The position numbers and the translations under genes are program-made. From TM7 phylum sp. oral taxon 348 (lineage in GTDB: Bacteria > Patescibacteriota > Saccharimonadia > Saccharimonadales > Saccharimonadaceae), in contig SDRW01000001.1 in assembly GCA_007845485.1 (NCBI GenBank), forward strand, positions 186,001 to 250,000: a stretch of 64,000 bases of DNA, in the 5' to 3' direction. The notes under the pieces are model-generated. The model had not been told where the DNA came from. It worked only from the letters and a program-made list of their open reading frames with translations, and did not search any database. Positions 42,779 through 56,935 of the stretch are shown one piece after another (within the stretch, counting starts at the first letter, position 1; the number at the start of each line of letters is the position of its first letter).

Positions 42779-43492
42779 TTAAAGTGTTTGCTCTAACATC
42801 AATGCAACCTCTCGTACAAGCCTAATAGTACGAGCATAGCTTTGTCTTGTTGGACCGAGTACACCTATATAGCTACGGTTACTATAAGGGGAACGAAACT
42901 TACTTATTATTAGACTTGCTTCACTTGATTTTCCAATTGGGTTTTCTTCTCCAATATACACATTAAGAGGCTCATCCGGTGATGCTTCGCGTAGCCAAGG
43001 CTCTAAATTGTCAAGCAATCGCGCTACAGATTGAGGAGCAGTGCCTCCATTCATAAATTCCGGCTGACTAAATAAACTACCTATACCGCTCATATATAGC
43101 TGCCCATCAATTGTAGCTATACCAAGATTATGAGTCAACTCAACCAAACTATCAACGGCGCTACGTATCATCTTATCCGCTCGGTCGTGATTGCTAGCAA
43201 CTCTAGCTTCTATAAATTTTGTACTACGATCCAAAGACGGCAATTCTGGCGTGTAGGATTGTTCTGTAATTTGATTAACGTAATATCTATATCCTTTATC
43301 AGTAGGTATACGCCCAGCACTAGTATGAGGTTGCATAATATATCCCATATGTTCTAATTTTACCATCTCACTACGGATAGTTGCGCTACTTACGCCAAAT
43401 AATTTTGCTAGCATAACGCTACCAACTGGCGCAGCAATTTCAGCATACTGCTCAATAATTGCAATCAAAATATGAGATTGTCTGTCTGTCAT
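42779..43492 (-). CDS. hrcA: HrcA heat-shock repressor (short form)
   Basis: Repressor that binds CIRCE. The N-terminal winged helix (about 1-70: LFGVSSATIRSEMVKLEHMGYI) is followed by HTSAGRIPTDKGYRYYV, diagnostic for HrcA, and a GAF-like domain. The 237 residues are about 100 fewer than in Bacillus; the shortening lies in the middle, and the C-terminal GVLGPTRQSYARTIRLV is kept. Extended -10 TGCTATAAT lies six bases before ATG, so the mRNA is probably leaderless, and a perfect CIRCE covers the -35 position, giving autoregulation. Confidence 0.95.
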   Translation of the reverse strand: MTDRQSHILIAIIEQYAEIAAPVGSVMLAKLFGVSSATIRSEMVKLEHMGYIMQPHTSAGRIPTDKGYRYYVNQITEQSYTPELPSLDRSTKFIEARVASNHDRADKMIRSAVDSLVELTHNLGIATIDGQLYMSGIGSLFSQPEFMNGGTAPQSVARLLDNLEPWLREASPDEPLNVYIGEENPIGKSSEASLIISKFRSPYSNRSYIGVLGPTRQSYARTIRLVREVALMLEQTL

Positions 43493-43511: not shown

Positions 43512-43538
43512 TTAGCACTCCATAAAAGTGAGTGCTAA
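43512..43538 (-). promoter_or_regulatory. CIRCE operator of hrcA-grpE
   Basis: TTAGCACTC-N9-GAGTGCTAA, a perfect CIRCE. It overlaps the last four bases of gmk. Confidence 0.96.
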
Positions 43539-44248
43539 ATTAGTTTTTGTAAATCATTAAGCAAGCTACGCGCTGTTATTCTAGCATGGTCGTCTCTAGA
43601 GTTAAATAAATCACCACGCTTAATAATCTCACAACATGTCTGCACTGCATTATCTAAATCATCATTAATAATCACATGGTAATAAGGCACTTCTAATGCA
43701 TGCTTCAACTCTTCAATAGAAGATTGACGACGCTTTGGCCATTCGGCCTGAAAATCTGCTTCTGTTTTGTATCGTTTTTTTAATCTCTCGATCCAAGTTT
43801 GATAAGTTGGCGGTACAATAAAAATTGCTATCCCACAAGGAGAAAGTTTTTCATACTCTGCCACGCCTTGAACATCAATATCGGTAATTGCTACTTTGTT
43901 TTGATCATAAGCTAATTTTATTTCTGCTACTGACGTACCGTAAATGGTACCGTGGACAAATTTTGCCTCAACAAATTCACGCTTTTGCAACATTTCCATT
44001 GCCGTTGGCTGATCAATAAAATGATAATCAACTCCATCCTCTTCAGCCTTACCGTTATTAACTCTTGGTAGACGAGTCGTATGCGAAACAATATCTCGAA
44101 AATATGGCATTTTTAAAAGCCGCTTTTTTATAGTATCTTTCCCTGCGCCAGTGATACCAGCAAGCAACACAACCTTGGTTGACCGAACTAGCTCAATGGC
44201 TTGTTTATTCGGTTCATAATCCTTGATTAGCTTTTCTATATCTAACAT
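43535..44248 (-). CDS. gmk: Guanylate kinase-like protein
   Basis: Phosphorylates GMP to GDP by family. A P-loop GITGAGKDT (31-39) replaces the usual GPSGxGKST. The GMP-binding block DIVSHTTRLPR and DGVDYHFID follow, then the YGTSVAEI and DIDVQGV segments. The length of 237 includes about 25 extra N-terminal residues before the kinase core. These extra residues reappear, about half identical, at the front of the gene at 44709-45257. The gene lies six bases after the HAD nucleotidase, forming a nucleotide-metabolism pair. Confidence 0.88.
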   Translation of the reverse strand: MLDIEKLIKDYEPNKQAIELVRSTKVVLLAGITGAGKDTIKKRLLKMPYFRDIVSHTTRLPRVNNGKAEEDGVDYHFIDQPTAMEMLQKREFVEAKFVHGTIYGTSVAEIKLAYDQNKVAITDIDVQGVAEYEKLSPCGIAIFIVPPTYQTWIERLKKRYKTEADFQAEWPKRRQSSIEELKHALEVPYYHVIINDDLDNAVQTCCEIIKRGDLFNSRDDHARITARSLLNDLQKLI

Positions 44249-44254
44249 AAATAT

Positions 44255-44722
44255 CTATAATAAACTATTAAGTACAGATTGCCAATTAGGAAATTCAGAA
44301 CTACCAAAATGGATGTGTCGACCTAAAAAATCACCTGCGCCATTTGCTGTCCGATCATCAATTAAAATATCGCCGCGGTTCAAGTGTTTAACAGACGAAA
44401 ATATAACTTTGCGAAAGAAAATATTTTCCTGACCATCGCCACCAAAATACTTTTTTACCCACGCTAGCTTATCGCCTAACGCTGTCGGATTCTCCCATGG
44501 CGATGATGACAAAATATACAAATCATATTTTTCTTTCAGTCTATCGACAGCTTCAAGAGCTCCTGGCACCGGATCCATCAAGGCAAAAATGCCTGGGATA
44601 TTGTCGTACTCACCGGCGAATTTCTCCAACATCTCGGGCGAAACCTTCGTCAAGGCAGACTCAAAATCGACCAGCACGCCGTCCATATCGATATAAATGA
44701 TCGATTTGTCATTTTCGTTCAT
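44255..44722 (-). CDS. HAD-family 5'-nucleotidase-like protein, copy 1
   Basis: A 155-residue HAD phosphatase resembling 5'(3')-deoxyribonucleotidases (NT5C). Motif I is DMDGVLVDF (nucleophile Asp12, Asp14), motif II YILSSSPWEN and motif IV ILIDDRTANGAGDF. ATG 44722 is chosen: AGGGG lies five to six bases upstream, whereas the longer frame (44785) begins inside the neighbour without a site. It overlaps the preceding chimeric gene by 14 bases and is followed by gmk after six bases. A second, GC-richer copy lies at 51701-52174. Confidence 0.85.
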   Translation of the reverse strand: MNENDKSIIYIDMDGVLVDFESALTKVSPEMLEKFAGEYDNIPGIFALMDPVPGALEAVDRLKEKYDLYILSSSPWENPTALGDKLAWVKKYFGGDGQENIFFRKVIFSSVKHLNRGDILIDDRTANGAGDFLGRHIHFGSSEFPNWQSVLNSLL

Positions 44723-45257
44723 CTTTACCCCTGCCAGTAAAGAATGAAAAATCACGATACACAGCACTTCCATCACCAGGTGCACTGCCCTTATTTCGAT
44801 GAATAAATCCCTGCTTACGGGCAGCTTTTAGATCACCGAGCGTAGGGAATGTTGTCACTTCATTCCATTCGTTTGGTAAGCGGCGTTTGGTGACAGCAAA
44901 GCAGCTATCAACCCCTCTAATCACTACAGCCCTAATTATTTTTATACCCATACGCCTCGCCAGTGTTGTTCGGTGCATTCCATCGACAAGCAGCAGCCCT
45001 TCATGATCATCTTCCTCAATAATAGGCGGAAGCATAACTCCGCCTCCTCCATTTTCTTCATCGACAATATCAATTCCTCCAGTTCCCATATGAAGTGTGT
45101 CTTCACCGTACGGCAACACAAGCTCTCTTAGCTCTTGCTGTTTGTCCACGCCAGAAATACCGACCAACAGCACGATTTTAGTTCGCTGCACCACATCACT
45201 GGCTGCTTGGTTCGGTTGGTAGTTTTTGATCAGATTTTTTAGGTTATTTTCAAGCAT
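44709..45257 (-). CDS. Chimeric protein: guanylate-kinase-like N-terminus plus ParB/Srx-like domain
   Basis: A 182-residue protein. Residues 1-38 align without gaps worth noting with the N-terminus of the gmk product (LIKNYQPN versus LIKDYEPN; RTKIVLLVGISG versus STKVVLLAGITG), but the P-loop is ruined: GISGVDKQ has no GK[ST]. From about residue 50 the sequence is unrelated to kinases and contains LLLVDGMHRTTLARRMG (89-105), a ParB/sulfiredoxin-type nucleotide-binding signature. The C-terminus is basic. It probably arose by duplication of the gmk start and fusion to another reading frame. Extended -10 TGTTATAAT lies five bases before ATG. The function is unknown; a ParB-like NTPase or nucleic-acid role is possible. 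Confidence 0.7.
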   Translation of the reverse strand: MLENNLKNLIKNYQPNQAASDVVQRTKIVLLVGISGVDKQQELRELVLPYGEDTLHMGTGGIDIVDEENGGGGVMLPPIIEEDDHEGLLLVDGMHRTTLARRMGIKIIRAVVIRGVDSCFAVTKRRLPNEWNEVTTFPTLGDLKAARKQGFIHRNKGSAPGDGSAVYRDFSFFTGRGKDERK

Positions 45258-45340
45258 ACTTAATTATAACACCCGGCAGACGCGATGAAAAATTCGCGCC
45301 GGTCTAAAGCCGCAGCCGCAACACCCTCGCTCGCCCAAGC

Positions 45341-46084
45341 TTACTCAACGCCCATCAAAAAACTAAAAATCACACTAACGTACAACTCGTACGCCAATGG
45401 CTGATTACCGCCATCAATTTTCGAAAAATTATGATTCGCGCCGGGGACTATCTTTTTGACAGCAAGCCTCGCCGAGCTGTACGCCGCCAGCAATTCGTCC
45501 TGCGACGCAAGCGGCACGACCACGTCCTTTTCGCCCTGAAGCAGCAGCACATCGCCCGTGAAAGTCGCCGCCGCGCTGGTGACGTAACGCTTGGACGGAT
45601 AAGTCGAAAGAATCGGTTTCGTCGCCGAACTAGAGCCGGTGCCCGAACCGCACAAGACAATTTTCTCGACGTGTGAGAAAACCTCGCGCAGCGTGCTCGC
45701 CATAGTGCCGCCCATAGAATTCGCCACGATTTGATAACGCTTTTGCCGCGCGCCAAAAACTTCCGGCGCGCGCTCACTTAAAACGCGAAATATATCCAAA
45801 ATATCGCGGCGCTCCTCGTCGAAAGTTTTCTCGCAAAAAGCCTTCTTTTCATCGCCCGATTTATAAATTTTCCAATCCCGCGACGAATTAAGATAAGCCA
45901 CATTCGCTACGCCCAAACGGCGAATTTTCTCGCCCAAAATGTACGACTTCGAGCCCCTATCGCCCGCCGTGCCGTAAAGACCGTGAATGAATACGACCGT
46001 CAAATCCGTTGTTGACGCGCTCCTGGCAAACTTAATGATATTGTGATTTTTACGATAATTTCCTGGGGTGTGAATCTTAATCAT
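45341..46084 (-). CDS. Alpha/beta hydrolase, GC-rich
   Basis: A 247-residue cytoplasmic alpha/beta-fold hydrolase. Motifs in order: oxyanion loop VVFIHGLYGT, nucleophile Ser in VANSMGGTMAS (about 125), acid in LLQGEKDVVVP and His in GANHNFSKIDG near the C-terminus. The substrate is unknown. Base composition is far from the bulk: the line 45541-45600 has 39 G+C in 60, against 19 in 60 for a pilC line (16561-16620). Codon use is correspondingly GC-shifted, which suggests recent transfer. CGGAG lies just before ATG. Confidence 0.8.
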   Translation of the reverse strand: MIKIHTPGNYRKNHNIIKFARSASTTDLTVVFIHGLYGTAGDRGSKSYILGEKIRRLGVANVAYLNSSRDWKIYKSGDEKKAFCEKTFDEERRDILDIFRVLSERAPEVFGARQKRYQIVANSMGGTMASTLREVFSHVEKIVLCGSGTGSSSATKPILSTYPSKRYVTSAAATFTGDVLLLQGEKDVVVPLASQDELLAAYSSARLAVKKIVPGANHNFSKIDGGNQPLAYELYVSVIFSFLMGVE

Positions 46085-46295
46085 TTCTCCGTGCTCTCTA
46101 TAGTTAATGCACGCTGAATTCCGTTATGACATTCTTATATATCAACCTCTACATAAGCGAATCGATATTAAATAGATCATCTCATAAGACTAATTTACCA
46201 TAATAGCTATCAACTATTAACATTTCTGTGGTACAATTTATATGTAATTATATGCAACTCTTAAATTATTAAATTGAATAGGATACGTTAGTATT

Positions 46296-47009
46296 ATGAT
46301 ACGAAGAGAGCCAAAAGCACTAACGGGAGTGCGACCTACAGGTGAATTAACAATAGGCAACTACCTAGGCGCTATACAACCGGTAGTGAATATGCAAGAG
46401 GAATTTGATGGACCTATTGGCGTCTTTGTGGCGGATATTCACGGACTAACAGATCAGGAGCCAAAGACAGTTTCCGCCACTCGACTAGTAGCTGCTCGTG
46501 CCCTTCTTGCTGCAGGTGTTGATACGAGCAGAACATCAATATACCTTCAGAGTCAGATAGAAAACCAAACTTTATATTTGGCAAATCTTTTTGATAGACA
46601 CACAACTCCCGCAGAACTAGAGAGAGTACCGACGCTCAAAGATAAACTTAAAAATGATCAAAGCGCGTCAAACGTTAATCTTTCGCTTTTTAGATATCCT
46701 GTCCTCATGGCTGCTGACATAGCCATACAAGACGCCACTCATGTTCCAGTGGGAGAGGATCAGCTTTCCCACCTCGAACTTACCCGTAGATTGGTGCGTA
46801 GATTCAACACCAAGTACGACGCAACTAGCGATGGCATTCTAGTAGAACCAAAGTCCCTAGCGCGTAAAGCTTTACGTATAGCAGCCTTAAATGCACGAGA
46901 TGGCAAGATGAGTAAGTCTCGACCTAAAAGTGCAATACTACTAAGAGACTCTGCAGACGAGGTGGCAAAAAAGTCAGAAAAGCCCAAACTGCCCTACCAG
47001 GTGAAATGA
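46296..47009 (+). CDS. trpS: Tryptophanyl-tRNA synthetase, N-terminal part (frame broken at 46967-46972)
   Basis: Class I aminoacyl-tRNA synthetase charging tRNA-Trp. PTGELTIGNYLGA (the HIGH motif, with Thr as in E. coli TrpRS), ADIHGLTD, VPVGEDQLSHLELTR and the KMSKS loop GKMSKSRPKS are all present. The frame then runs into nonsense and stops at residue 237, about 100 residues short. In the -1 frame the family sequence resumes exactly at 46973, immediately after the six-A run, so residue 226 joins to a 111-residue C-terminal part for a normal 337-residue enzyme. The sequence at the break is A AAA AAG in the zero frame. This may be recoding, a real one-base deletion, or a homopolymer sequencing error. 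Confidence 0.88.
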   Translation: MIRREPKALTGVRPTGELTIGNYLGAIQPVVNMQEEFDGPIGVFVADIHGLTDQEPKTVSATRLVAARALLAAGVDTSRTSIYLQSQIENQTLYLANLFDRHTTPAELERVPTLKDKLKNDQSASNVNLSLFRYPVLMAADIAIQDATHVPVGEDQLSHLELTRRLVRRFNTKYDATSDGILVEPKSLARKALRIAALNARDGKMSKSRPKSAILLRDSADEVAKKSEKPKLPYQVK

Positions 47010-47308
47010 ACGACACTCTTGATAGCCACTTCATGGTGGCAGAATTACTATCTACAGATTCAGAAGATAAGGATGAGGTCTTAAATCTAAAAAAAGCACA
47101 TCTTGACGGAGAAATGGTGATGGCCGACTTTAAGAATCTTCTTACTGACAGACTTAATGATTTTTTGACCGATTTTCGTGATCGCTACGAGAATATTGAT
47201 GAAAAAGACGTAAAGCTTGCTCTTGCCGAAGGTGGCGAACAAGCACGTGATAAAGCTAATGAAGTGACACATAGGGTTCGAAACTCTCTAGGGCTTGATG
47301 AACTATAA
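47006..47308 (+). CDS. trpS: Tryptophanyl-tRNA synthetase, C-terminal part
   Basis: The open frame begins at 46973 and reads V-R-K-A-Q-T-A-L-P-G-E before the first ATG at 47006. It carries the C-terminal helical domain of TrpRS (HFMVAELLST, then MVMADFKNLLTDRLNDFL). The internal ATG overlaps the TGA of the upstream part, so independent translation by re-initiation is possible, but the product would lack the catalytic core. It should be read as the end of the 46296 gene. Its last six bases overlap the end of the convergent hydrolase-kinase fusion gene. Confidence 0.85.
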   Translation: MNDTLDSHFMVAELLSTDSEDKDEVLNLKKAHLDGEMVMADFKNLLTDRLNDFLTDFRDRYENIDEKDVKLALAEGGEQARDKANEVTHRVRNSLGLDEL

Positions 47309-48952
47309 TGCTAAAAATCGTGCAATCTTATCAATAGTGTCCTTATTTGGCTCACCGTAATCATATAAACTAGTAATAGCCCCTGGCACCGATACCTTAT
47401 TATACTTTAAATGGCTTCTCACTATACTACGTAAAGTTTTAAGTAACCTTGCATTAACTGTTGTCGCCGATACATCACAATGACTTTCTAAGGTTGCTGA
47501 CCTAACTGCATTAGACAGATGCTCATGAAGCAAATCTGACCTTAATTTTGCGTCTCTAGCGAGTAGTATATCAATAAATACTTCAACTTCAATAGGTATA
47601 AACGGCGATAAAGCGCATACTATATCGTCACGCTTTAATCTACCGCCAACGCCGTCACCGCTTACATATGACTCTGCTGATATCGCATTCATATAGGGCA
47701 TGGTTTTCAAATTACCCACACCGCTCGACTTAGAGCCCAACATATTTAAAAATACTTTTTCATATTCGCCCGTAAGCAGATTTTCGCCAGGCTCTTTAAA
47801 AGCACCAGACTGTTCGAGAATAGGCAAAACTTTTGAAATAAGACTCCAGCCAATGAGATAATTAGTTTTTAACAATACATCAAACATCACTGGAGTATCA
47901 CTGAATTCCGCGTCCTCCCAGTCGATGAGAAATATATTACTATCCGTTACTATAGTATTTCGCGGCAGAAAGCCTGAATAGATTACACCTTTATTTGCAA
48001 ACTCCTCCACTATAAGCTTAACTTCATTCGCCGATAAAGTAATATTGCTACGCTGTAGATAAAAGCATCCATTATAGTCAGCACTCTTGTATTCAGACAC
48101 CAGATAGCAGGTTTCGTTATCAATCATCACTAAAGAACTTGGCACAACCACCGCTATTGTGCGATTCCCAATAGATGTCCCATCTAAGCGCTTAAAAGCT
48201 TCTTCTGCATTATCTTTTTCGCGTACAGCTTTAGAATATGATGTTCTTTTGGCTATATACTTTACCTCACCGTAAGTAAACGCTCGTATATAACCAAAAG
48301 GGTCGTACATCCAGGCACTATAAGGCCTATACCCACCTCGTGACCTATGCACCCTTAAAACCGCTTCATTCAAAGAAGAGCCTTGAGCCTCTGGAAAAAC
48401 TCTCTCTTCTTCTGGCTGATTTGTCATGATAAATGTTTGTGCATATCTTGACATTTTCTTAAAATTATCGTATGCATGGCTATCTGATCTTACACGTGTC
48501 AGCAGGATATTATTTGGTATTATTTGCCGAACAGCACTTGCATAGCCTTGCGGATCTCTCGTACCTTGAATAATGAGGATTCTATGTTCTTTTGATATAT
48601 CTGCAATAAGTGAGCTTATATCTACTTTTCTATATCTAGCATATTCTAGAGGTAAACCAAATCCCACAATTGACACGGGAAACAATACACCATTTCCAAC
48701 TCCGATAAGAGATAGTAGCAGTCCAGCTGATTTCGCTACAATAGAATATTCTTTGATATTATTTCGTTTAATGAACCTTTCAAGTCTAGCAAGTTCTATA
48801 TCAAAATCTATATCGTGATCAGCGCCCTTCCAATGTAAATACTCGTGAGTAGCTACGTTAAAGTCTGGATTTAAATGCGCGCACATGTCATCAACCCAAA
48901 TCTTATTACTTGCACTATTTCCACCAAGTATAATTACAGTATGTGAAGTCAT
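47303..48952 (-). CDS. Fusion of an alpha/beta-hydrolase-like domain and an aminoglycoside-phosphotransferase-like domain
   Basis: A 549-residue protein with two enzyme-like domains. Residues about 5-175 look like a compact alpha/beta hydrolase: VIILGGNSAS, nucleophile Ser75 in VAKSAGLLLS, acid Asp133 in IQGTRDPQG, and His159 in SDSHAYDN. Residues about 205-400 look like an APH/choline-kinase fold: Lys235 in VKYIAKRTS, hinge YLVSEYK, loop SGFLPRNTIV with Asn332, and metal-binding Asp344 in FLIDWEDAEF. The catalytic Asp of the HGDxxxxN loop is Phe328, so this half may be an inactive or altered kinase. Residues 400-549 are helical and unassigned. The ATG overlaps the tkt stop (ATGA), so it is the last gene of the pepE-tkt operon. 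Function unknown. Confidence 0.75.
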   Translation of the reverse strand: MTSHTVIILGGNSASNKIWVDDMCAHLNPDFNVATHEYLHWKGADHDIDFDIELARLERFIKRNNIKEYSIVAKSAGLLLSLIGVGNGVLFPVSIVGFGLPLEYARYRKVDISSLIADISKEHRILIIQGTRDPQGYASAVRQIIPNNILLTRVRSDSHAYDNFKKMSRYAQTFIMTNQPEEERVFPEAQGSSLNEAVLRVHRSRGGYRPYSAWMYDPFGYIRAFTYGEVKYIAKRTSYSKAVREKDNAEEAFKRLDGTSIGNRTIAVVVPSSLVMIDNETCYLVSEYKSADYNGCFYLQRSNITLSANEVKLIVEEFANKGVIYSGFLPRNTIVTDSNIFLIDWEDAEFSDTPVMFDVLLKTNYLIGWSLISKVLPILEQSGAFKEPGENLLTGEYEKVFLNMLGSKSSGVGNLKTMPYMNAISAESYVSGDGVGGRLKRDDIVCALSPFIPIEVEVFIDILLARDAKLRSDLLHEHLSNAVRSATLESHCDVSATTVNARLLKTLRSIVRSHLKYNKVSVPGAITSLYDYGEPNKDTIDKIARFLAL

Positions 48953-50211
48953 TTGTTAAACCTACGCAAACCCTCAAGTGCTACATTGGTGATTCCCTCT
49001 TCATCGAACCCAAAATGACGTATTAGGTCACTAACCGACCCTGACGTCCCTTCAGTAAAGCCATGGCCTATGATACCACGAGGTTTAGATATATCAGGAT
49101 TTTCCAAAATGGCCGAGCTGACCGAATTCTTTAATATAGAGGGGTCGCCGTTATACACCGTTAAAATTGGGGCATCTGTATCAAGTATTTCTGGCAACCT
49201 TTGGGATAATGATTTCTGGTCAACTACATTGATGACAGACGTTGGTATACCGTGCTCAGTCTCTAATGTTTTGGCCGCATCAACGGCATTTTGGAGCATG
49301 AAACCACTGCCTATAATAGTTAATTCTGGTGTTTTGTCGGTTTTATGTACATAGTATGCATCAGTAGCGCCCTTATCTGATTCATCACGATCAAGCTTTA
49401 CCGTACCGCGATGCAACCTGACATAGCTAACACCCTCATTCTCGTATAGAGCTTTAGAAAACACATTGTATAGATCATTGATATCCGACGGCTCATATAC
49501 ACTCATGTCTGGCACATGAAGTAGAGCACCCTGTTGGCCAATAGATTGATGAGTCTTGCCATTTTGCCCCTGGAAAATACCAGCATTTTCTCCAGCTATA
49601 AGAATATTGCTACCGGCTTGAGCAGCTGCATTCATTTGGTCTAATGCTCGATAAACAAATGCATCACCATAACAAACATATATTCTTGCCGTCGGGTCTT
49701 CAACCGAAATACCATGCGACATAGCAATTGCGTGCTGTTCGCGAATACCAGTATCGATAAAGTTAGCAAAACTCTCAAGACCAGTTTCCTTAACTATGTC
49801 TGAGCGCAGAAGATCTAGAGTAACAAAGTAGAACGGGGCTGATGGCTCAAGCTTCTCTATATTCTGTCTTAACTCATCAAAGAAAAGTGATTGAGCCATC
49901 TCAAGATTAACACCCGATTCTCCATCATATCTCAAATTAAACACCTCTTCATCTATTACACTGCTACTGTCAGAAGGGCTAGTAGCATAAGGTCTAGTCA
50001 TGTGCTCCATTGCATAAGACTTAATATCTTCCAATGACACACCTGCATCGCCAAGTCTATTCGCTATCTTTCCTATAGCCCTTCCGACAACCGCTCTGTC
50101 CGGGACGGCACTCAACGTATGATATCCACTGAAATGCTCTTCACTTCCTTCAACACCATACCCCTTGATTGTATGAGCAATAACTACAGTGGGTTTGCGC
50201 AAATCCTGCAA
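48949..50211 (-). CDS. tkt: Transketolase, C-terminal part (after in-frame TAG)
   Basis: Continues the same reading frame as the gene part at 50233-50934; the only interruption is TAG at 50233-50235. The uninterrupted frame resumes at 50232 with I-I-D-V-Y-D-E-L; the coordinates given use a TTG at 50211, a poor start without a site. It contains the end of the TPP domain (VVIAHTIKGYGVEG), the pyrimidine domain with catalytic Glu in DTGIREQHAIAMSHG, GENAGIFQGQNGKTHQSIGQ and the C-terminal transketolase domain. Read-through would give a 660-residue protein, the family's normal size. Confidence 0.85.
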   Translation of the reverse strand: MQDLRKPTVVIAHTIKGYGVEGSEEHFSGYHTLSAVPDRAVVGRAIGKIANRLGDAGVSLEDIKSYAMEHMTRPYATSPSDSSSVIDEEVFNLRYDGESGVNLEMAQSLFFDELRQNIEKLEPSAPFYFVTLDLLRSDIVKETGLESFANFIDTGIREQHAIAMSHGISVEDPTARIYVCYGDAFVYRALDQMNAAAQAGSNILIAGENAGIFQGQNGKTHQSIGQQGALLHVPDMSVYEPSDINDLYNVFSKALYENEGVSYVRLHRGTVKLDRDESDKGATDAYYVHKTDKTPELTIIGSGFMLQNAVDAAKTLETEHGIPTSVINVVDQKSLSQRLPEILDTDAPILTVYNGDPSILKNSVSSAILENPDISKPRGIIGHGFTEGTSGSVSDLIRHFGFDEEGITNVALEGLRRFNK

Positions 50212-50232
50212 TTCGTCATATACGTCAATTAT

Positions 50233-50934
50233 CTATTCTATATCGTGACCGTCTTTTATCTCTTTTACACCCCACCCGTATCCAGACCAAATTTCCTTCA
50301 AATTTGAAGCTGAATCAGAATGATTGGTTGGTCTAGACAGCTGCTTACCATTTTTGTCTATGATACATATTAGATTATCTAGATTGAGCGCAGCCGCATG
50401 CCTTGCGGCTTCACTTACATTACCCTCCTGCTCCTCTCCATCGCCCAAAAATACTATCGTCCTGTTATCTCGGTTGTGTTCTTTTGATGCAATTGCAGCA
50501 CCAACTCCATAAGAAAGTAGCATGCCAAGCGATCCACTTGGTGTAATATCTACACCAGGTGTCTCGTGCATATCCTCGTGACCTTGCAAACGAGACCCTA
50601 GCTGTCGATACATCCCTAGTTCATCTCTATCAATATACCCTAGTAGCGAAAATATAGGATATCGTATCGGCCCCTCGTGTCCACGAATTAATATTCTATC
50701 ACGGTTTGGGTTGTCCGGATCATCCGGATCAAAGTTAAAACGACCGCCAAAATACATCGCAGTCAGTAACTCAACAGACGAAAGACTACCACCTATGTGA
50801 CCGTTATTAGCAGCAGTAATGACCTCCAAAGCATCTTTTCTTAAGAAGTCGGCTACTAATTGAAGCTTGTCGATATGAGTCCTTTTTGTCTCAGTATCTG
50901 GACTGGCTACAAACTGTTCTCTATTTTTATACAT
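50233..50934 (-). CDS. tkt: Transketolase, N-terminal part (ends at in-frame TAG)
   Basis: Thiamine-diphosphate enzyme of the non-oxidative pentose phosphate pathway. It shows NNGHIGGSLSSVELL, GSRLQGHEDMHETPGV and the TPP motif LGDGEEQEGN...N about 30 residues apart. The frame stops at DGHDIE-TAG, whereas family members continue (often with Gln) into II..., which is just what follows the TAG. A single C-to-T change (CAG to TAG) would explain it. TAG is a genuine stop elsewhere in the window (rny, pilB, pilC), so genome-wide recoding is unlikely. GGGAGGA lies five bases before the ATG; the start follows pepE by 16 bases. Confidence 0.88.
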   Translation of the reverse strand: MYKNREQFVASPDTETKRTHIDKLQLVADFLRKDALEVITAANNGHIGGSLSSVELLTAMYFGGRFNFDPDDPDNPNRDRILIRGHEGPIRYPIFSLLGYIDRDELGMYRQLGSRLQGHEDMHETPGVDITPSGSLGMLLSYGVGAAIASKEHNRDNRTIVFLGDGEEQEGNVSEAARHAAALNLDNLICIIDKNGKQLSRPTNHSDSASNLKEIWSGYGWGVKEIKDGHDIE

Positions 50935-50950
50935 AATTATCCTCCCCTAT

Positions 50951-51598
50951 TCATGCAACATATCCACTTTCAACATCGCCATTAATAATATACACTTCAC
51001 CGTCTCTTAGTTTTAAAATATCTTTGCGTTCTTTAGTTATATAATCTACGTAGTCAGGGACATTTTTAGCCCAAGGTTGCTTGCTTTCATAATGACACGC
51101 TATATAGTGATCAATGAGCCCTAATGCTTTCATGGGCGGCGCCTGTTCTTGGTAGCCAAAAGGAATCTCATGAGGATCGTCTATTAATTCTGATCCCAAT
51201 AAATCAGGTGCTGCAACTATAGTAGCAGCACTATACCCTCCAAAGACCAGGCTATCGTTTCGTATCATCTCAGATGCAACTTTACTAAATCCTGATTGTT
51301 CCATGGCTCGAACCAGTGTATATACGTTACCACCTCTAACCCACACCATACCAAATTGCTTCAACCTATCCTTCAAAGTCTTCGAATCACCAAAATATTC
51401 TCGTAAATCTAGTTCTTCTGTCTCTAAGCCAAGCTTATTTAATCTAGCCTCTTCTTTTTGTAGTCTATCAGCTCTATGACGACCATCAGACATATCAATT
51501 GCATTGGCTATTACACCCACCCTCTTTTTGTCTCCAATCATTTCAAGCAGTACATGTGAAGCAGACCCCATGTGCTGAGAAGATAGATAAAGTTTCAT
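50951..51598 (-). CDS. Peptidase E-like protein (family S51)
   Basis: A 215-residue class I glutamine-amidotransferase-fold serine peptidase resembling dipeptidase E / cyanophycinase. Nucleophile Ser123 lies in VFGGYSAATIVAA (family GWSAG) and the oxyanion region in VWVRGGNVYTLVRAM. S51 enzymes cleave after Asp or process storage peptides. It is the first gene of a three-gene minus-strand operon with tkt and the hydrolase-kinase fusion. A GGGG lies eight bases before ATG. The specific substrate cannot be read from the sequence. Confidence 0.85.
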   Translation of the reverse strand: MKLYLSSQHMGSASHVLLEMIGDKKRVGVIANAIDMSDGRHRADRLQKEEARLNKLGLETEELDLREYFGDSKTLKDRLKQFGMVWVRGGNVYTLVRAMEQSGFSKVASEMIRNDSLVFGGYSAATIVAAPDLLGSELIDDPHEIPFGYQEQAPPMKALGLIDHYIACHYESKQPWAKNVPDYVDYITKERKDILKLRDGEVYIINGDVESGYVA

Positions 51599-51700
51599 TG
51601 CGAATACCCCATAAGAGTCATTTTACCATACAGTAATTTAAAACCCGAAATAGTTTAAGCCGACTTTTATCATCAAATTTTCTAAAGTTAAGATATCTTA

Positions 51701-52174
51701 TTAAATTAAGTAGCCCAACACAGCCTCCCAGTCAGGAAAATCTCGGCTACCAAACAATACGTGCTCGCCCTCGAAATCGCCCGCGCCGTTTGCCGTGCGA
51801 TCGTCAATTAAAATGTCGCCACGACTCAGGTGCTTAACCGACGAAAACACAACTTTTCGAAAAAATATATTCTCCAAACCATCGCCGCCAAAATATTTTT
51901 TCACCCACGCCAACTTGTCGACCAGCGCCGTCGGATTTTCCCACGGCGACGACGACAAAATGTAAAGGTCGTATTTTTGCCGCAGCTTCTCAACCGCCTC
52001 GATCGCGCCCGGCATCGGCTCCATCAGCGCGAAAATCCCCGGAATATCATCCGGCCGCCCGTCATATTCGCGCAAAATTTCCGGCTCAACCCTATCAAAC
52101 GCCGACACAAAATCCACCAGCGTTACGTCCATGTCGATGTAGAGAATCGGCTTCTTCTCGTTATTTTTCAACAT
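51701..52174 (-). CDS. HAD-family 5'-nucleotidase-like protein, copy 2 (GC-rich)
   Basis: A 157-residue paralogue of 44255-44722. Motif I is DMDVTLVDF (Asp14, Asp16), and YDLYILSSSPWENPTAL and ILIDDRTANGAGDF are the same as in copy 1. The two proteins are about 70% identical by eye, yet the DNA differs mainly at third positions toward G or C: line 52021-52080 has 32 G+C in 60, the matching part of copy 1 (44521-44580) 26 in 60. Such a pattern suggests orthologues from lineages of different GC content rather than a recent duplication. Extended -10 TGTTATAAT lies ten bases before ATG. Confidence 0.85.
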   Translation of the reverse strand: MLKNNEKKPILYIDMDVTLVDFVSAFDRVEPEILREYDGRPDDIPGIFALMEPMPGAIEAVEKLRQKYDLYILSSSPWENPTALVDKLAWVKKYFGGDGLENIFFRKVVFSSVKHLSRGDILIDDRTANGAGDFEGEHVLFGSRDFPDWEAVLGYLI

Positions 52175-52237
52175 ACCGCCACTAATTATAACAGACCTCC
52201 AAACAGCACATAAGCAGGTCGCCCGAAAGCACTAAAA

Positions 52238-54037
52238 CTACAAACTCTCGTAATACTCTCTCAGCATTTGCGCCATCAAACGCTGCCGCTGCCGCAGAAA
52301 ATCTGCATAATCATCTGCGTCTGCCTCGATCAATATTTGCGGAATTGCGTTATCGTTAAAGTTATCTGCGAGCTCCTTTTCGCTCGCAATATCACTGTGA
52401 TGATTATTGTCTCCGCTCAAAATATTACTCAAATATTTATTCGGAGCAGCGTCGCTAACCGAAACATTGATGTCATTTTTCAAATGGACAAAGTTGGCGA
52501 TTCGGTTATATTTTGTCTTATCGTAGCCGTTTTTCACCAAATAATTTTTCGGGAAAATATGATGAATTTCGCCCGTTGCTAAATCACGCGCTAGGTTGCT
52601 TTTTGACAAAAAGCTTTGTTTGAGCAGCTTATTCTGTGCCGCCACGAACATATGCCAAAACGGATTATTGACCGTTGGCTTATCAAATTCATCAACCAAA
52701 GTTGAATTCCAAAAAGCATCCGAAAGTTCCTGCTCTTCGAGCGTGGCGATAAATTTCGTAATATCGCCCGGCTGATTGATGCGCTTAATATCTTGCTCGA
52801 ACCGCGTCTCAAAGCTGCCAGAATGGCGACCGGTCATCAACGAAATCGCCAGCAAACGCCGCACCGACGAATTAACCATAGCATGATTTTCGCCAACATC
52901 CAGCAGCCGCAAATACATCGCGTACGCATAATTTACAGCGTTACGCGCGATCAACATGCCAGGCTCATCATAGCCGCTCGCCCGCAAAACATTTTGCACG
53001 AAATGCTTGAATTTATTTTCGTTCGTAAATTGATACAGTCCTTTTTCTAATTTTTTGAACGATTCATCGGCAATTTCTTTTTCGTTTTGGCGGGTTTCAA
53101 AATTACGCCCAGAAAGCAGCGCCACGATATCACCCAATTTACCGCGCGCAAATTGCGTCAAGCCAATGACGCGGATGATGTCATTGTAAGTCGGGTCATA
53201 CAAATCGTCTGTCTCGTTTTTGAGCCACGAAATCTTCGCAAAATAATCCGTCGCGGCAAAATGCGTATCGTTCTCTGCAATAGTTTCAAACTGCTCCGGC
53301 GCAGCCGATAGGTGCGCAAAGTAATCGATGAATTTACGCAGCTTCATACCTATTTCATCGCCCGGCTCTTTTTCGTAAACAGCAATTCTACTCATCGCAA
53401 AATCCGCATTGCTCAAATTTACGCCGCTAGCATTGATGCGTACAAAAATTTCATTAACAACATTGATATCAAGCGCCGGACTTAATTGAATTTCGCCAAT
53501 TTGTTTATTTTTAATTTGAATGAGGCGATTCAGACGCGAATTAATTTCCTGGCGCGTCGTGTTTGGATTTTTGGCAACATATTCATCGACAAACGTTAGC
53601 GTATCATAGCCATTCACCATAACTTCGGCGATATCGCCAATCCATTCTTTGCCGCGCTCCGTCGAACTTGTGCGCGTACGAAATTCCTCTGTAATCGGAT
53701 TGAACGAAATAGCAATGCGGCGTTTTTTATAATTTTTATCAATCACATTCAAGCCACTTATCGCCGCTCGCAAAGCAGTGATTCGCTGTTGCCCATCGAT
53801 CAAAATCCGCTTGCCTTGCGAAGTAGAACCGTCCTTCAGCCTCACATCTGGATTCTGCCAGGTTATTATATAGCCAACCGGATAGCCCTGATACAGCGAA
53901 TCCATCAAATCGCGCACTTGACTGCTAGTCCAAACAAACGGGCGCTGAATTTCCGGAATAGCAATCGCCCCACTCTCCACCCAAGCCAAAATCGTGCTAA
54001 TTGGTGTTTGATTTAGAGAAAATTTCGTTTCTTCCAT
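52238..54037 (-). CDS. DUF262 / HNH-type nuclease (GmrSD-like defence protein)
   Basis: A 599-residue protein. The N-terminal DUF262 (ParB-like NTPase) domain shows IPEIQRPFVW (27-36) and ILIDGQQRITAL (78-89), the DGQQR motif. After a long helical middle comes a C-terminal HNH/DUF1524-like nuclease region with GEIHHIFPKNYL and NRIANFVHLKNDIN. This architecture is that of the GmrSD type IV restriction family and related phage-defence proteins that cleave modified DNA. It appears as a single gene without accessory partners. GC content is above the bulk, as in the flanking HAD copy 2 and lepA C-part. TATAAT lies seven bases before ATG. Confidence 0.85.
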   Translation of the reverse strand: MEETKFSLNQTPISTILAWVESGAIAIPEIQRPFVWTSSQVRDLMDSLYQGYPVGYIITWQNPDVRLKDGSTSQGKRILIDGQQRITALRAAISGLNVIDKNYKKRRIAISFNPITEEFRTRTSSTERGKEWIGDIAEVMVNGYDTLTFVDEYVAKNPNTTRQEINSRLNRLIQIKNKQIGEIQLSPALDINVVNEIFVRINASGVNLSNADFAMSRIAVYEKEPGDEIGMKLRKFIDYFAHLSAAPEQFETIAENDTHFAATDYFAKISWLKNETDDLYDPTYNDIIRVIGLTQFARGKLGDIVALLSGRNFETRQNEKEIADESFKKLEKGLYQFTNENKFKHFVQNVLRASGYDEPGMLIARNAVNYAYAMYLRLLDVGENHAMVNSSVRRLLAISLMTGRHSGSFETRFEQDIKRINQPGDITKFIATLEEQELSDAFWNSTLVDEFDKPTVNNPFWHMFVAAQNKLLKQSFLSKSNLARDLATGEIHHIFPKNYLVKNGYDKTKYNRIANFVHLKNDINVSVSDAAPNKYLSNILSGDNNHHSDIASEKELADNFNDNAIPQILIEADADDYADFLRQRQRLMAQMLREYYESL

Positions 54038-54120
54038 GTGGTTTATTATACTATGCGCAGTAATTTATGTCTCAGAAATTAAGGCACGTTTGATTTTTAT
54101 GGTGTGCATTTGGTACGGCT

Positions 54121-55083
54121 TTAATCCCTCTTTAACATCACCATAAACGCTTCACTCGGAATGTCAACCTTGCCGAAGCGTTTCATGCGCTTTTTACCGC
54201 GAGCTTGTTTAGCGAGGAGCTTCTTTTTACGGCTGACATCACCGCCGTACAGATAGCCAGTAACGTCTTTGCGGTAAGCGCCAATGTTTTCGCGGGCGAT
54301 AAACTTGCCGCCGATTGCTGCCTGCAATGCCACTTCAAAGCTCTGGCGCGGCACCACTTCTTTGAGTTTTTTGACGATCTCCCGGCCCAAGCCTGGCGCC
54401 TCCGAACGATGGCACATCACACTCAGCGCATCGACCATTTCGCCCGCCACATAAAAATCAACGCGCACCAAATCTTCCGCCTGGTAGCCCGCCAGCTCAT
54501 AGTTAAACGAACCGTAACCGCTAGTTACCGACTTCAATTGATCATAAAAATCAGTCAGTAAATTTGCCAGCGGTGCCGTAAAGGAAATCAGCGCCCTCTC
54601 GTCGATGTAGCTAAGGTTTTTCTGCCGGCCACGCTTGGCGACAATCAACTGAATCACCGCACCGATGTAGTCCTGCGGCACCACAATTTCACCATCAATC
54701 CACGGCTCGCGAACCTCGGTAATTTGCGCTGGGTCAGGTAGTTCGCTGGCTGATTTGATATCCAACTCCTCGCCGTTAGTCAGGCTGACTTGATAATCAG
54801 TGCTCGGATTAGTGACGATGAGATCCAAATTATACTCGCGCTCTAAACGCTCACGAATAATATCCATATGAAGTAACCCGAGGAAACCGATCCGCACGCC
54901 GTAGCCCAGCACTGGCGAATTTTCCGACTCAAACTGCAGCGCTGAATCGCTCAAACTCAGCTTCTCGATCGCTTCTTTCAGATCATTATAATCTTCGTTG
55001 GACACCGGGAAAAACCCCGCATAGACGAAGGGTTTGACTTCTTTGTAGCCAGGAAGAGGCTGGACAATAACTTTATTTGCCAT
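54121..55083 (-). CDS. lepA: LepA (elongation factor 4), C-terminal part
   Basis: Domains III, IV(G'') and the LepA-specific C-terminal domain of elongation factor 4. It begins MANKVIVQPLPGYKEVKP, exactly where the full-length protein crosses from domain II to domain III, and contains GFLGLLHMDIIRERLEREY, the family hallmark, and KKKLLAKQARGKKRMKRFG at the end. The 320 residues plus the 277 encoded at 56102-56935 equal a full LepA (about 597). It lacks the GTPase. It has its own start and an extended -10 (TGTTATAAT, 55091-55099) seven bases before ATG, so it may be expressed separately. Composition is GC-richer (54301-54360: 35 of 60) than the N-part (56161-56220: 21 of 60). Confidence 0.9.
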   Translation of the reverse strand: MANKVIVQPLPGYKEVKPFVYAGFFPVSNEDYNDLKEAIEKLSLSDSALQFESENSPVLGYGVRIGFLGLLHMDIIRERLEREYNLDLIVTNPSTDYQVSLTNGEELDIKSASELPDPAQITEVREPWIDGEIVVPQDYIGAVIQLIVAKRGRQKNLSYIDERALISFTAPLANLLTDFYDQLKSVTSGYGSFNYELAGYQAEDLVRVDFYVAGEMVDALSVMCHRSEAPGLGREIVKKLKEVVPRQSFEVALQAAIGGKFIARENIGAYRKDVTGYLYGGDVSRKKKLLAKQARGKKRMKRFGKVDIPSEAFMVMLKRD

Positions 55084-55090
55084 TTTGTAA

Positions 55091-55099
55091 ATTATAACA
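55091..55099 (-). promoter_or_regulatory. Extended -10 promoter of the lepA C-part
   Basis: TGTTATAAT on the minus strand, ending seven bases before ATG 55083. It lies downstream of the terminator that closes the inserted gene. Confidence 0.55.
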
Positions 55100-55144
55100 T
55101 TTTATAAATTTAGCGTCGATAATCCAGTATATATCAAAGTAAAT

Positions 55145-55169
55145 CCCCGTATTTTAACTTAATACGGGG
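55145..55169 (-). terminator. Terminator of the gene inserted in lepA
   Basis: Nine-base-pair perfect stem CCCCGTATT/AATACGGGG with a seven-base loop, 50 bases after the stop of the inserted gene. The 3' side is only moderately T-rich (ATTTACTTT). Confidence 0.7.
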
Positions 55170-55218
55170 TATATTCCTCCTTACTTTAAATAGTTAAATT
55201 GGGTTCGTTTTAGGCTAC

Positions 55219-55998
55219 CTAGCCCTGCCCTGTTAGTTTAACTGGGCGCTGCCGATAAATTACCTTGCCTTTTTTGTTCATGACATAGTAACCACAGCCT
55301 TCACCTTTAGGTCCGCCTTTTCCACCAAAGTAGAACATAACAGAATAGTCCGAACGGATTTCGACGAACACACCACTACGACGATACCTACTGGGAATGC
55401 CGATCTTTTCGGCCAAGTAATTACGATATGTAGCGAACTTTCGAGCTGAATTAGAATAATCCAAAACAGCAGATTTATGCTCTACTTGAGCATCATCCCT
55501 TTTCTCTTTGGCTGAATCAAAAATTGGTTTAAGCTCTTTGCGCTTACCCCTGTAGTCTCGAAGAGTATGCAAAACTTTGTCAAGTTCAGCTTGAGCTGCA
55601 ATAATCATATTATTGTGATGACAAATGTCTTGATCATAGCAAGAATATTCTTCCTCATACTCGCGAATCTGAATTCTCAGAGTAGAACTCAGGTGGCGAC
55701 TTTCAGATTTCTGAAGTTTCTCTTGCAGTCGCTCTATCATTTCTAGTAAGTTATCTAGAACTCCTTCGATGAATTTGACATTACAACCACACAAACTACG
55801 CATACGCTTGAAAGATTCTTTATCATCCAGATACTTTTCGTACTCACCTTGCTCTAAATACCATGCTTGATTCAAGGAGTCACGTGCAGTAACCAGTTTA
55901 TTGCCAGCTTCTTTCAGTTCTTTATAGGCATCTTTTTTGACTTGCCTTGATTCATTCATAGCTTTCATCAAAACGTCAAGCCTCTTGCCTGGCAACAT
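55219..55998 (-). CDS. Unknown coiled-coil protein inserted between the two parts of lepA
   Basis: A 259-residue soluble protein of no recognised family. Residues about 5-185 are charged helix with heptad-like Leu/Glu/Lys, containing CGC near 69-71 and a Cys/His cluster (CYDQDICHHN, about 120-130). Residues about 195-259 switch to a compact, Gly- and Tyr-rich basic beta-like domain (VFYFGGKGGPKGEGCGYYV in outline). I see no LAGLIDADG, GIY-YIG or HNH motif, no intein end and no transposase DDE. It is a complete transcription unit: consensus promoter, operator-like palindromes, Shine-Dalgarno (AGGTGA) and terminator. That fits a self-contained cargo gene inserted into lepA. Confidence 0.75.
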   Translation of the reverse strand: MLPGKRLDVLMKAMNESRQVKKDAYKELKEAGNKLVTARDSLNQAWYLEQGEYEKYLDDKESFKRMRSLCGCNVKFIEGVLDNLLEMIERLQEKLQKSESRHLSSTLRIQIREYEEEYSCYDQDICHHNNMIIAAQAELDKVLHTLRDYRGKRKELKPIFDSAKEKRDDAQVEHKSAVLDYSNSARKFATYRNYLAEKIGIPSRYRRSGVFVEIRSDYSVMFYFGGKGGPKGEGCGYYVMNKKGKVIYRQRPVKLTGQG

Positions 55999-56031
55999 TT
56001 ACATCACCTATCCTATACTGTAAGGAGCGAA

Positions 56032-56053
56032 GTTATAACGGGATTGTTATAAC
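56032..56053 (-). promoter_or_regulatory. Tandem palindromic boxes downstream of the -10 (putative operator)
   Basis: Two copies of the perfect palindrome GTTATAAC, at 56032-56039 and 56046-56053, 14 bases apart start to start. They cover the expected transcription start and early leader of the inserted gene, a place where a repressor would block initiation. Confidence 0.5.
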
Positions 56054-56061
56054 CATAACTT

Positions 56062-56089
56062 ATTATACATATTTTTAATATTTTGTCAA
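56062..56089 (-). promoter_or_regulatory. Consensus sigma70-type promoter of the inserted gene
   Basis: TTGACA (56084-56089), 16-base spacer, TATAAT (56062-56067): a perfect consensus in both hexamers, the strongest promoter in the window. Confidence 0.75.
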
Positions 56090-56101
56090 TCAGAAATTAA
56101 T

Positions 56102-56935
56102 TTAATCAAAATACTTCTTTAAACTAACCGTATCACCAACCCGAGCCTCACGGGTGGTTTTAAGATTAGTGATAATATACCCAATCTCACCAGTATCAAG
56201 TAATGGGTCAGAACACATAGTTGGACTTAGATGCCCAACTTCTAATGCTAAACCATTAGCATTAGTAGCAAGCATATGAATCGCCTCACCCTTTTTAATT
56301 TGCCCATCAACTAGTCGCACATATAGAATCACGCCGCGGTAATCATCGTAGTAACTATCAAAAATAAGTGCCCGTACTGGACTATTTAATTCACCCTTTG
56401 GTGAAGGAATTCTCTCTATAATTGCATCTAATACCTGGTCAACATTCTGGCCAGTTTTAGCAGAAATTTGAATAATATCACTTTCATTACATCCTAGCAG
56501 ATTGATCACCTGCTTAGAGACACGCGGTACATCGGCAGCTGGTAAGTCTACTTTATTTAGAACGGGGATTATTTTTAAATCCTGCTCCATCGCTAAATAA
56601 ACATTAGCTAATGTCTGCGCCTGAATACCCTGGCTAGCGTCAACCACCAACACCGCGCCTTCACATGCCTGTAAACTACGCGATACCTCATAACTAAAGT
56701 CTACATGCCCTGGAGTATCAATCAAATTTAAATGAATTCCTTTATAACACATTCTAACAGGCGCAAGTTTTATAGTTATACCTTTTTCACGCTCTAAATC
56801 CATACTATCAAGTAACTGTGATTTCATCTCACGCTTAGCAACCGTCCCCGTCATCTCCATCATTCGATCAGCCAACGTTGATTTACCATGATCTATGTGG
56901 GCGATAATACAAAAATTACGAATTTTATCCTGCAT
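56102..56935 (-). CDS. lepA: LepA (elongation factor 4), N-terminal part
   Basis: GTPase domain and domain II of the back-translocating elongation factor 4. G1 is AHIDHGKST, G2/G3 region EREKGITIKLAPV and DTPGHVDFSYEV, G4 NKVDLP, G5 SAKTG. Domain II ends in RVGDTVSL, then five residues (KKYFD) and TAA that do not belong to LepA. Alone it would be a 277-residue two-domain GTPase without the ribosome-reaching C-terminal domain. AT-rich like the bulk genome. Extended -10 TGTTATAAT lies ten bases before ATG. The remaining domains are encoded 1 kb downstream after an inserted gene. Confidence 0.92.
   Translation of the reverse strand: MQDKIRNFCIIAHIDHGKSTLADRMMEMTGTVAKREMKSQLLDSMDLEREKGITIKLAPVRMCYKGIHLNLIDTPGHVDFSYEVSRSLQACEGAVLVVDASQGIQAQTLANVYLAMEQDLKIIPVLNKVDLPAADVPRVSKQVINLLGCNESDIIQISAKTGQNVDQVLDAIIERIPSPKGELNSPVRALIFDSYYDDYRGVILYVRLVDGQIKKGEAIHMLATNANGLALEVGHLSPTMCSDPLLDTGEIGYIITNLKTTREARVGDTVSLKKYFD

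Follow-up and report, generated by a model that had tools for sequence, protein, structure and literature searches.

A chimeric gene joining a guanylate kinase N-terminus to a truncated Parb-CE domain near gmk in a saccharibacterial genome

ParB-type folds bind CTP, ATP or GTP, and fusions are common among ParB-CTPase-fold proteins (PMC12704722). The canonical ParB partition protein is recognised by a helix-turn-helix (HTH), a C-terminal dimerisation domain and a parA partner. The members of the Parb-CE family (PF24392) found in the phylum Patescibacteria are stand-alone proteins of about 200–235 aa with a conserved start of their own. A search of the literature on Parb-CE, HD-CE and fusions of gmk with ParB returned nothing.

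Here we describe FUS182, a gene in the genome of TM7 phylum sp. oral taxon 348. All coordinates refer to the analysed stretch of 64,000 nt (the window). FUS182 (44709–45257, minus strand) codes for 182 aa and is a two-part chimera. It resembles the ParB-CTPase-fold fusions in that a ParB-type NTP-binding fold is joined to foreign sequence, but here an enzyme fragment instead of a domain was added, and part of the fold has given way to it. With Parb-CE it shares the PPIxE, DGxHR, LPxxW and YRD regions, the small size and the overlap with a nucleotide-metabolism gene, as in the same-family genome G550; however, the first ~65 residues of the family, with an invariant R...Y...P...Y, are replaced by the N-terminus of a guanylate kinase (Gmk). 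The Gmk proteins of Saccharibacteria (PF00625/TIGR03263) have the N-terminal helix, the beta-1 strand and GISG in common with FUS182, which in contrast lacks a functional P-loop and the GMP-binding and lid regions. In a Pfam scan no match to the Guanylate_kin domain (PF00625) was found, and Parb-CE was the only domain detected, so that the HTH and the C-terminal dimerisation domain of canonical ParB are missing. No parA was recognised by eye among the listed open reading frames neighbouring FUS182.

Layout of FUS182 and its junction

A preliminary description of the window had placed a 182-aa reading frame 460 bases from gmk (43535–44248, minus strand), and these positions are correct. The similarity of the two N-termini exceeds chance, as had been supposed: the protein alignment scored 105, whereas none of 2000 shuffles exceeded 61. 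On the DNA level the first ~94 bp can be aligned with ~71% identity. The fusion to a ParB-like domain is also confirmed. Residues 5–36 correspond to the N-terminal helix, beta-1 and the first half of the P-loop of Gmk, residues 40–182 to the Parb-CE domain without its first ~65 residues. Thirty Saccharibacteria Gmk proteins yielded a profile that matched residues 5–45 with 32.8 bits (profile positions 2–42), and a profile from seven full-length Parb-CE proteins matched residues 35–173 with 58.9 bits. These two independent matches meet at residues 35–39. Pfam PF24392 matched residues 37–134 with 23 bits, exactly the curated cut-off of 23 (23.5 bits in a second scan); the assignment to the family is borderline by this measure because the domain is truncated.

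The Gmk-derived part comprises codons 1–36 (45150–45257), with homology detectable from codon 5, and the Parb-CE-derived part codons 40–182 (44709–45140). In a codon alignment with the gmk gene of G006, a member of the same genus, and the Parb-CE gene of G550, the Gmk matches run through GGT ATT TCT GGC (Gly33–Gly36), and clear Parb-CE matches are found from CAG CAA GAG (Gln40) onward. The three codons in between, GTG GAC AAA (Val-Asp-Lys, codons 37–39, 45141–45149), are compatible with either parent, and the lysine codon AAA is common to both (G-x-GK in Gmk, L-E-K-Q in Parb-CE). The breakpoint suspected in the P-loop is thereby confined to three codons. The Walker A sequence is GISGAGKDT in most Gmk relatives and GITGAGKDT in the window gmk; FUS182 reads GISGVDKQQ and, without the essential GK[S/T]-type residues, does not conform to GxxxxGK[ST]. 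In this respect the P-loop is indeed destroyed, but not by mutation: since the Gmk matches stop at Gly36 and the Parb-CE matches are clear from Gln40, we are looking at the end point of one parent and the beginning of the other.

Five nucleotides before the ATG a promoter-like sequence of the leaderless type, TTTTCA-17-TATAAT with TG, was identified by consensus match (45263–45291, minus strand). The sequence thus fits the promoter attributed to the gene previously, but in this region chance alone accounts for many such patterns, 26 being expected and 36 found.

Source of the Gmk-derived N-terminus

As a rule the Gmk proteins of Saccharibacteria begin with an LI-x-NY-x-P helix followed by a KIVLLVGISG strand. 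The N-terminal extension had been called unusual, which it is not, because the Gmk of relatives carries it as well. It had also been asked whether ParB-like homologues always carry this N-terminus; the relatives have a different one of their own. Their own start is kept in the Parb-CE proteins of G469, G443, G330, G540 and G519 (profile start 1–6), G425 (19) and G119 (4), the last being an order-level relative and the only one detected in a search of genome contigs; in FUS182 the match begins only at position 46–47. A fusion of Gmk with Parb-CE was found neither in 151 relatives nor in the other genomes searched.

Two explanations concern the N-terminus itself. According to the preliminary description it could be a portable targeting or interaction module, common to Gmk and other proteins. 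Its position ahead of the catalytic core and its retention in Saccharibacteria Gmk would agree with such a role. A search of the own genome with E values up to 10, however, detected it on gmk and FUS182 alone, and none was seen outside Gmk in the 151 relatives, where the matches lie in frames of 234–275 aa and those compared coincide with gmk. We regard a portable module as extremely unlikely. The other explanation is a local partial duplication, in which, long ago, a copy of the 5' part of the neighbouring gmk arose upstream and became linked to Parb-CE, both copies having diverged since. Both genes are situated in one locus in the same orientation, both contain the LIK-Y-PN pattern, and on the DNA level the own gmk, with 64% identity over 32 codons, ranks second to that of G006 as a match to the start of FUS182. 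Yet the identity is limited to 16 of 32 residues, which does not exceed that between gmk genes of different genera, and other gmk genes are at least as close (19/32 in G006, 18/32 in G019, 17–19/32 in G001). Third positions differ at 16 of the 32 codons, and two residues common to the Gmk of the window and of genus g38, the R of LVR and the A of LLAG, are absent from FUS182. Tree tests do not place the 32-residue N-terminus: forcing it together with the window gmk, the G001/G006 clade or the g38 clade gave p-AU values of 0.41–0.58, none of which is a rejection. The duplication from the gene 460 bases downstream, as described before, is therefore not demonstrated, and a local duplication appears rather doubtful to us. 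The gmk of other genera resembles this N-terminus at least as closely as the neighbouring gmk does; judged by these comparisons, the N-terminus is not a recent copy of the neighbouring gene but an old copy or one from another gmk.

Affinities of the neighbouring genes

The genes surrounding FUS182 differ in their affinities. The window gmk has an intact P-loop and groups with G038 and G080 of genus g38 (support 100/98), not with its own genus; forcing it together with G001 and G006 of the own genus gave a p-AU of 0.055, just short of rejection. The adjacent hrcA (42779–43492, minus strand), which forms the right-hand native flank, groups with G001/G006 (100/97). On the other side of gmk, HAD1 (44255–44722, minus strand, 155 aa) shares 14 nt with FUS182. 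This gene codes for an NT5C-type 5'-nucleotidase-like HAD protein, as indicated by a PF06941 match of 63.9 bits (cut-off 24.8; the scan ran from an upstream GTG start) and a DxDG motif (YIDMDGV). NT5C-type HAD genes were found in 3 of 150 other genomes searched, two of which are G038 and G080, where the gene order is lepA-HAD-gmk. The grouping of gmk with these two genomes, the rarity of the HAD gene outside them and the grouping of hrcA with the own genus together suggest that HAD-gmk came from a g38-like source.

About 10 kb (44249–54120) lie between gmk and the open reading frame for the C-terminal part of LepA, two genes that are directly adjacent in many relatives. This stretch contains a second NT5C-type gene, HAD2 (51701–52174, minus strand), which has a GC3 of 0.63, is 73% identical to HAD1 and is closer to the HAD of genus g38 (up to 80%). 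Beyond the HAD1/HAD2 paralogy the stretch has no long direct repeats at its flanks, and no Rfam introns were detected in the window or in the loci of the three relatives scanned. In the two closest relatives, G001 and G006, the contigs (loci L036 and L038) end inside lepA, at most about 200 bp upstream of gmk; this hints at a locus that varies between strains.

Some further genes of this part of the window are split. LepA (EF4) is encoded by two open reading frames (54121–56935; 277 and 320 aa), separated by about 1 kb that includes a 259-aa frame. The break occurs at the same point with different spacing in G038, G080 and G041, a different break near residue 183 is seen in G011, and 12 other relatives have a single frame. 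A transketolase-like gene (48949–50934) is likewise divided into two frames (Transketolase_N; Transket_pyr plus C-terminal domain), and a second, divergent TrpRS-like gene (46296–47308) consists of two overlapping frames (237 and 100 aa); a TrpRS of normal length, 43% identical to it, is encoded on contig C7 of the same genome. A restriction-type gene with GmrSD_N (DUF262) is located at 52238–54037.

The Parb-CE part, possible origin and function

In 394 genomes of the same family a clear relative of the Parb-CE part was found in G550 only (43% identity, E 1e-19). The protein of G550 is complete (PF24392, 87 bits). Its gene and an NT5C-type HAD gene downstream share 8 nt, the same order as FUS182 and HAD1, and a divergent NUDIX gene lies upstream. 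The differences between FUS182 and this gene at the three codon positions (65/46/91) show a coding pattern. Relatives of the Parb-CE part were not detected in searches of phages, plasmids and viral contigs, and a PDB sequence search gave no match. An AlphaFold model of FUS182 built from two sequences had a mean pLDDT of 30 and was discarded.

Both characteristic motifs of the family are present. In PPIIE (residues 77–81, 45015–45029, minus strand) the two prolines and the glutamate, and in DGMHR (residues 92–96, 44970–44984, minus strand), a ParB/Srx-type DGxHR, the residues D, G, H and R are invariant in eight of eight full-length relatives and kept in FUS182. The VDGMHRTTLA sequence pointed out earlier therefore exists, its invariant portion being DGxHR. 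Altogether 11/11 invariant and 16/19 near-invariant residues are conserved in the retained part; for other members the figures are 16–19 of 19–24. On this basis we consider it probably a working nucleotide-related protein. The replaced segment holds the R, Y, P and Y that are invariant in all eight relatives, and with their loss the activity may be impaired.

Three other explanations have to be considered for the gene as a whole. FUS182 could be a decaying relic, a chance fusion without function; the absence of the invariant N-terminal residues, the destroyed P-loop and the occurrence in one genome are in accordance with this. A full-length open frame, the complete set of invariant residues in the retained part and the overlap with the next gene, as in the intact relative, argue the other way, so that a relic is possible but not what we would expect, and the term fossil used before fits poorly. 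The fusion could also have originated elsewhere and have entered the genome in finished form, together with the foreign DNA around it. Its neighbours abH247, HAD2 and the C-terminal lepA frame have GC3 values of 0.58–0.63 (~0.21–0.30 in most window genes outside the stretch), and the N-terminal 36 codons of FUS182 reach 0.50, but GC3 is noisy over 36 codons (0.42 for the first 36 of the own gmk), and the fusion occurs in no other genome searched; we judge such an import to be unlikely. Finally, an assembly artefact could have joined two unrelated reads. The 890-kb genome is a draft of 19 contigs with an estimated contamination of 7.67%, the fusion is seen in this one assembly only, and the contigs of G001 and G006 end near the same spot. 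The junction is nevertheless in frame and at matching positions of both parents, the downstream overlap corresponds to that of G550, and neither half is identical to another sequence of the assembly that could serve as a false overlap. An artefact is very improbable.

We favour the explanation that FUS182 is a recombination chimera, formed when a Parb-CE-HAD(-gmk) segment was joined into the 5' end of an older gmk (probability about 0.5). A two-gene cassette of Parb-CE and NT5C-type HAD, intact in G550, would have reached the lepA-gmk-hrcA locus joined to gmk, and its left end would have joined in frame within codons 37–39 of the older copy. The promoter and first 36 codons of that copy would then drive a Parb-CE gene lacking its own first ~65 residues, and the Gmk part would be a relic of the displaced native gmk; this order of events we infer. 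FUS182 would thus most likely be a recombination by-product with a working Parb-CE core, and not a portable module. It presents a cleanly resolved chimeric gene, whose junction lies within three codons, at a probable site of gene displacement in a reduced genome.

Concerning function, NTP binding by Parb-CE is expected by analogy with the ParB fold. Our best guess from the gene arrangement is that FUS182 takes part in nucleotide handling together with HAD1; most likely it is still a small partner protein that binds NTPs or nucleotides in the clean-up or salvage of nucleotides. The N-terminal strand of the ParB fold is lost, and the helix and beta-1 of Gmk may substitute for it to a greater or lesser degree. 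That they physically replace this first strand to give a new HAD-coupled nucleotide enzyme is a speculation to which we attach little likelihood; if true, an unrelated nucleotide-binding fold would have taken over the first structural element of a P-loop enzyme as a functioning component.

In most of the loci examined Parb-CE is flanked by genes of nucleotide metabolism. An NT5C HAD is found beside it in G000 and G550, NUDIX in G550, G119 and G330, and a Thy1/ThyX-family gene with an HD-thymidylate kinase in G443 and G519; near the G540 gene there is a partial dCTP-deaminase-like frame, which scores below its cut-off. We found no description of this association, which makes a nucleotide-related role of Parb-CE directly testable. 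At the loci L109, L034, L102, L103 and L105 the Parb-CE genes of Patescibacteria adjoin nucleotide-metabolism genes. At L109 and L034 the product of a divergent gene has a winged-helix-like N-terminus together with a NUDIX domain (weak matches) and could perhaps be a nucleotide-sensing regulator.
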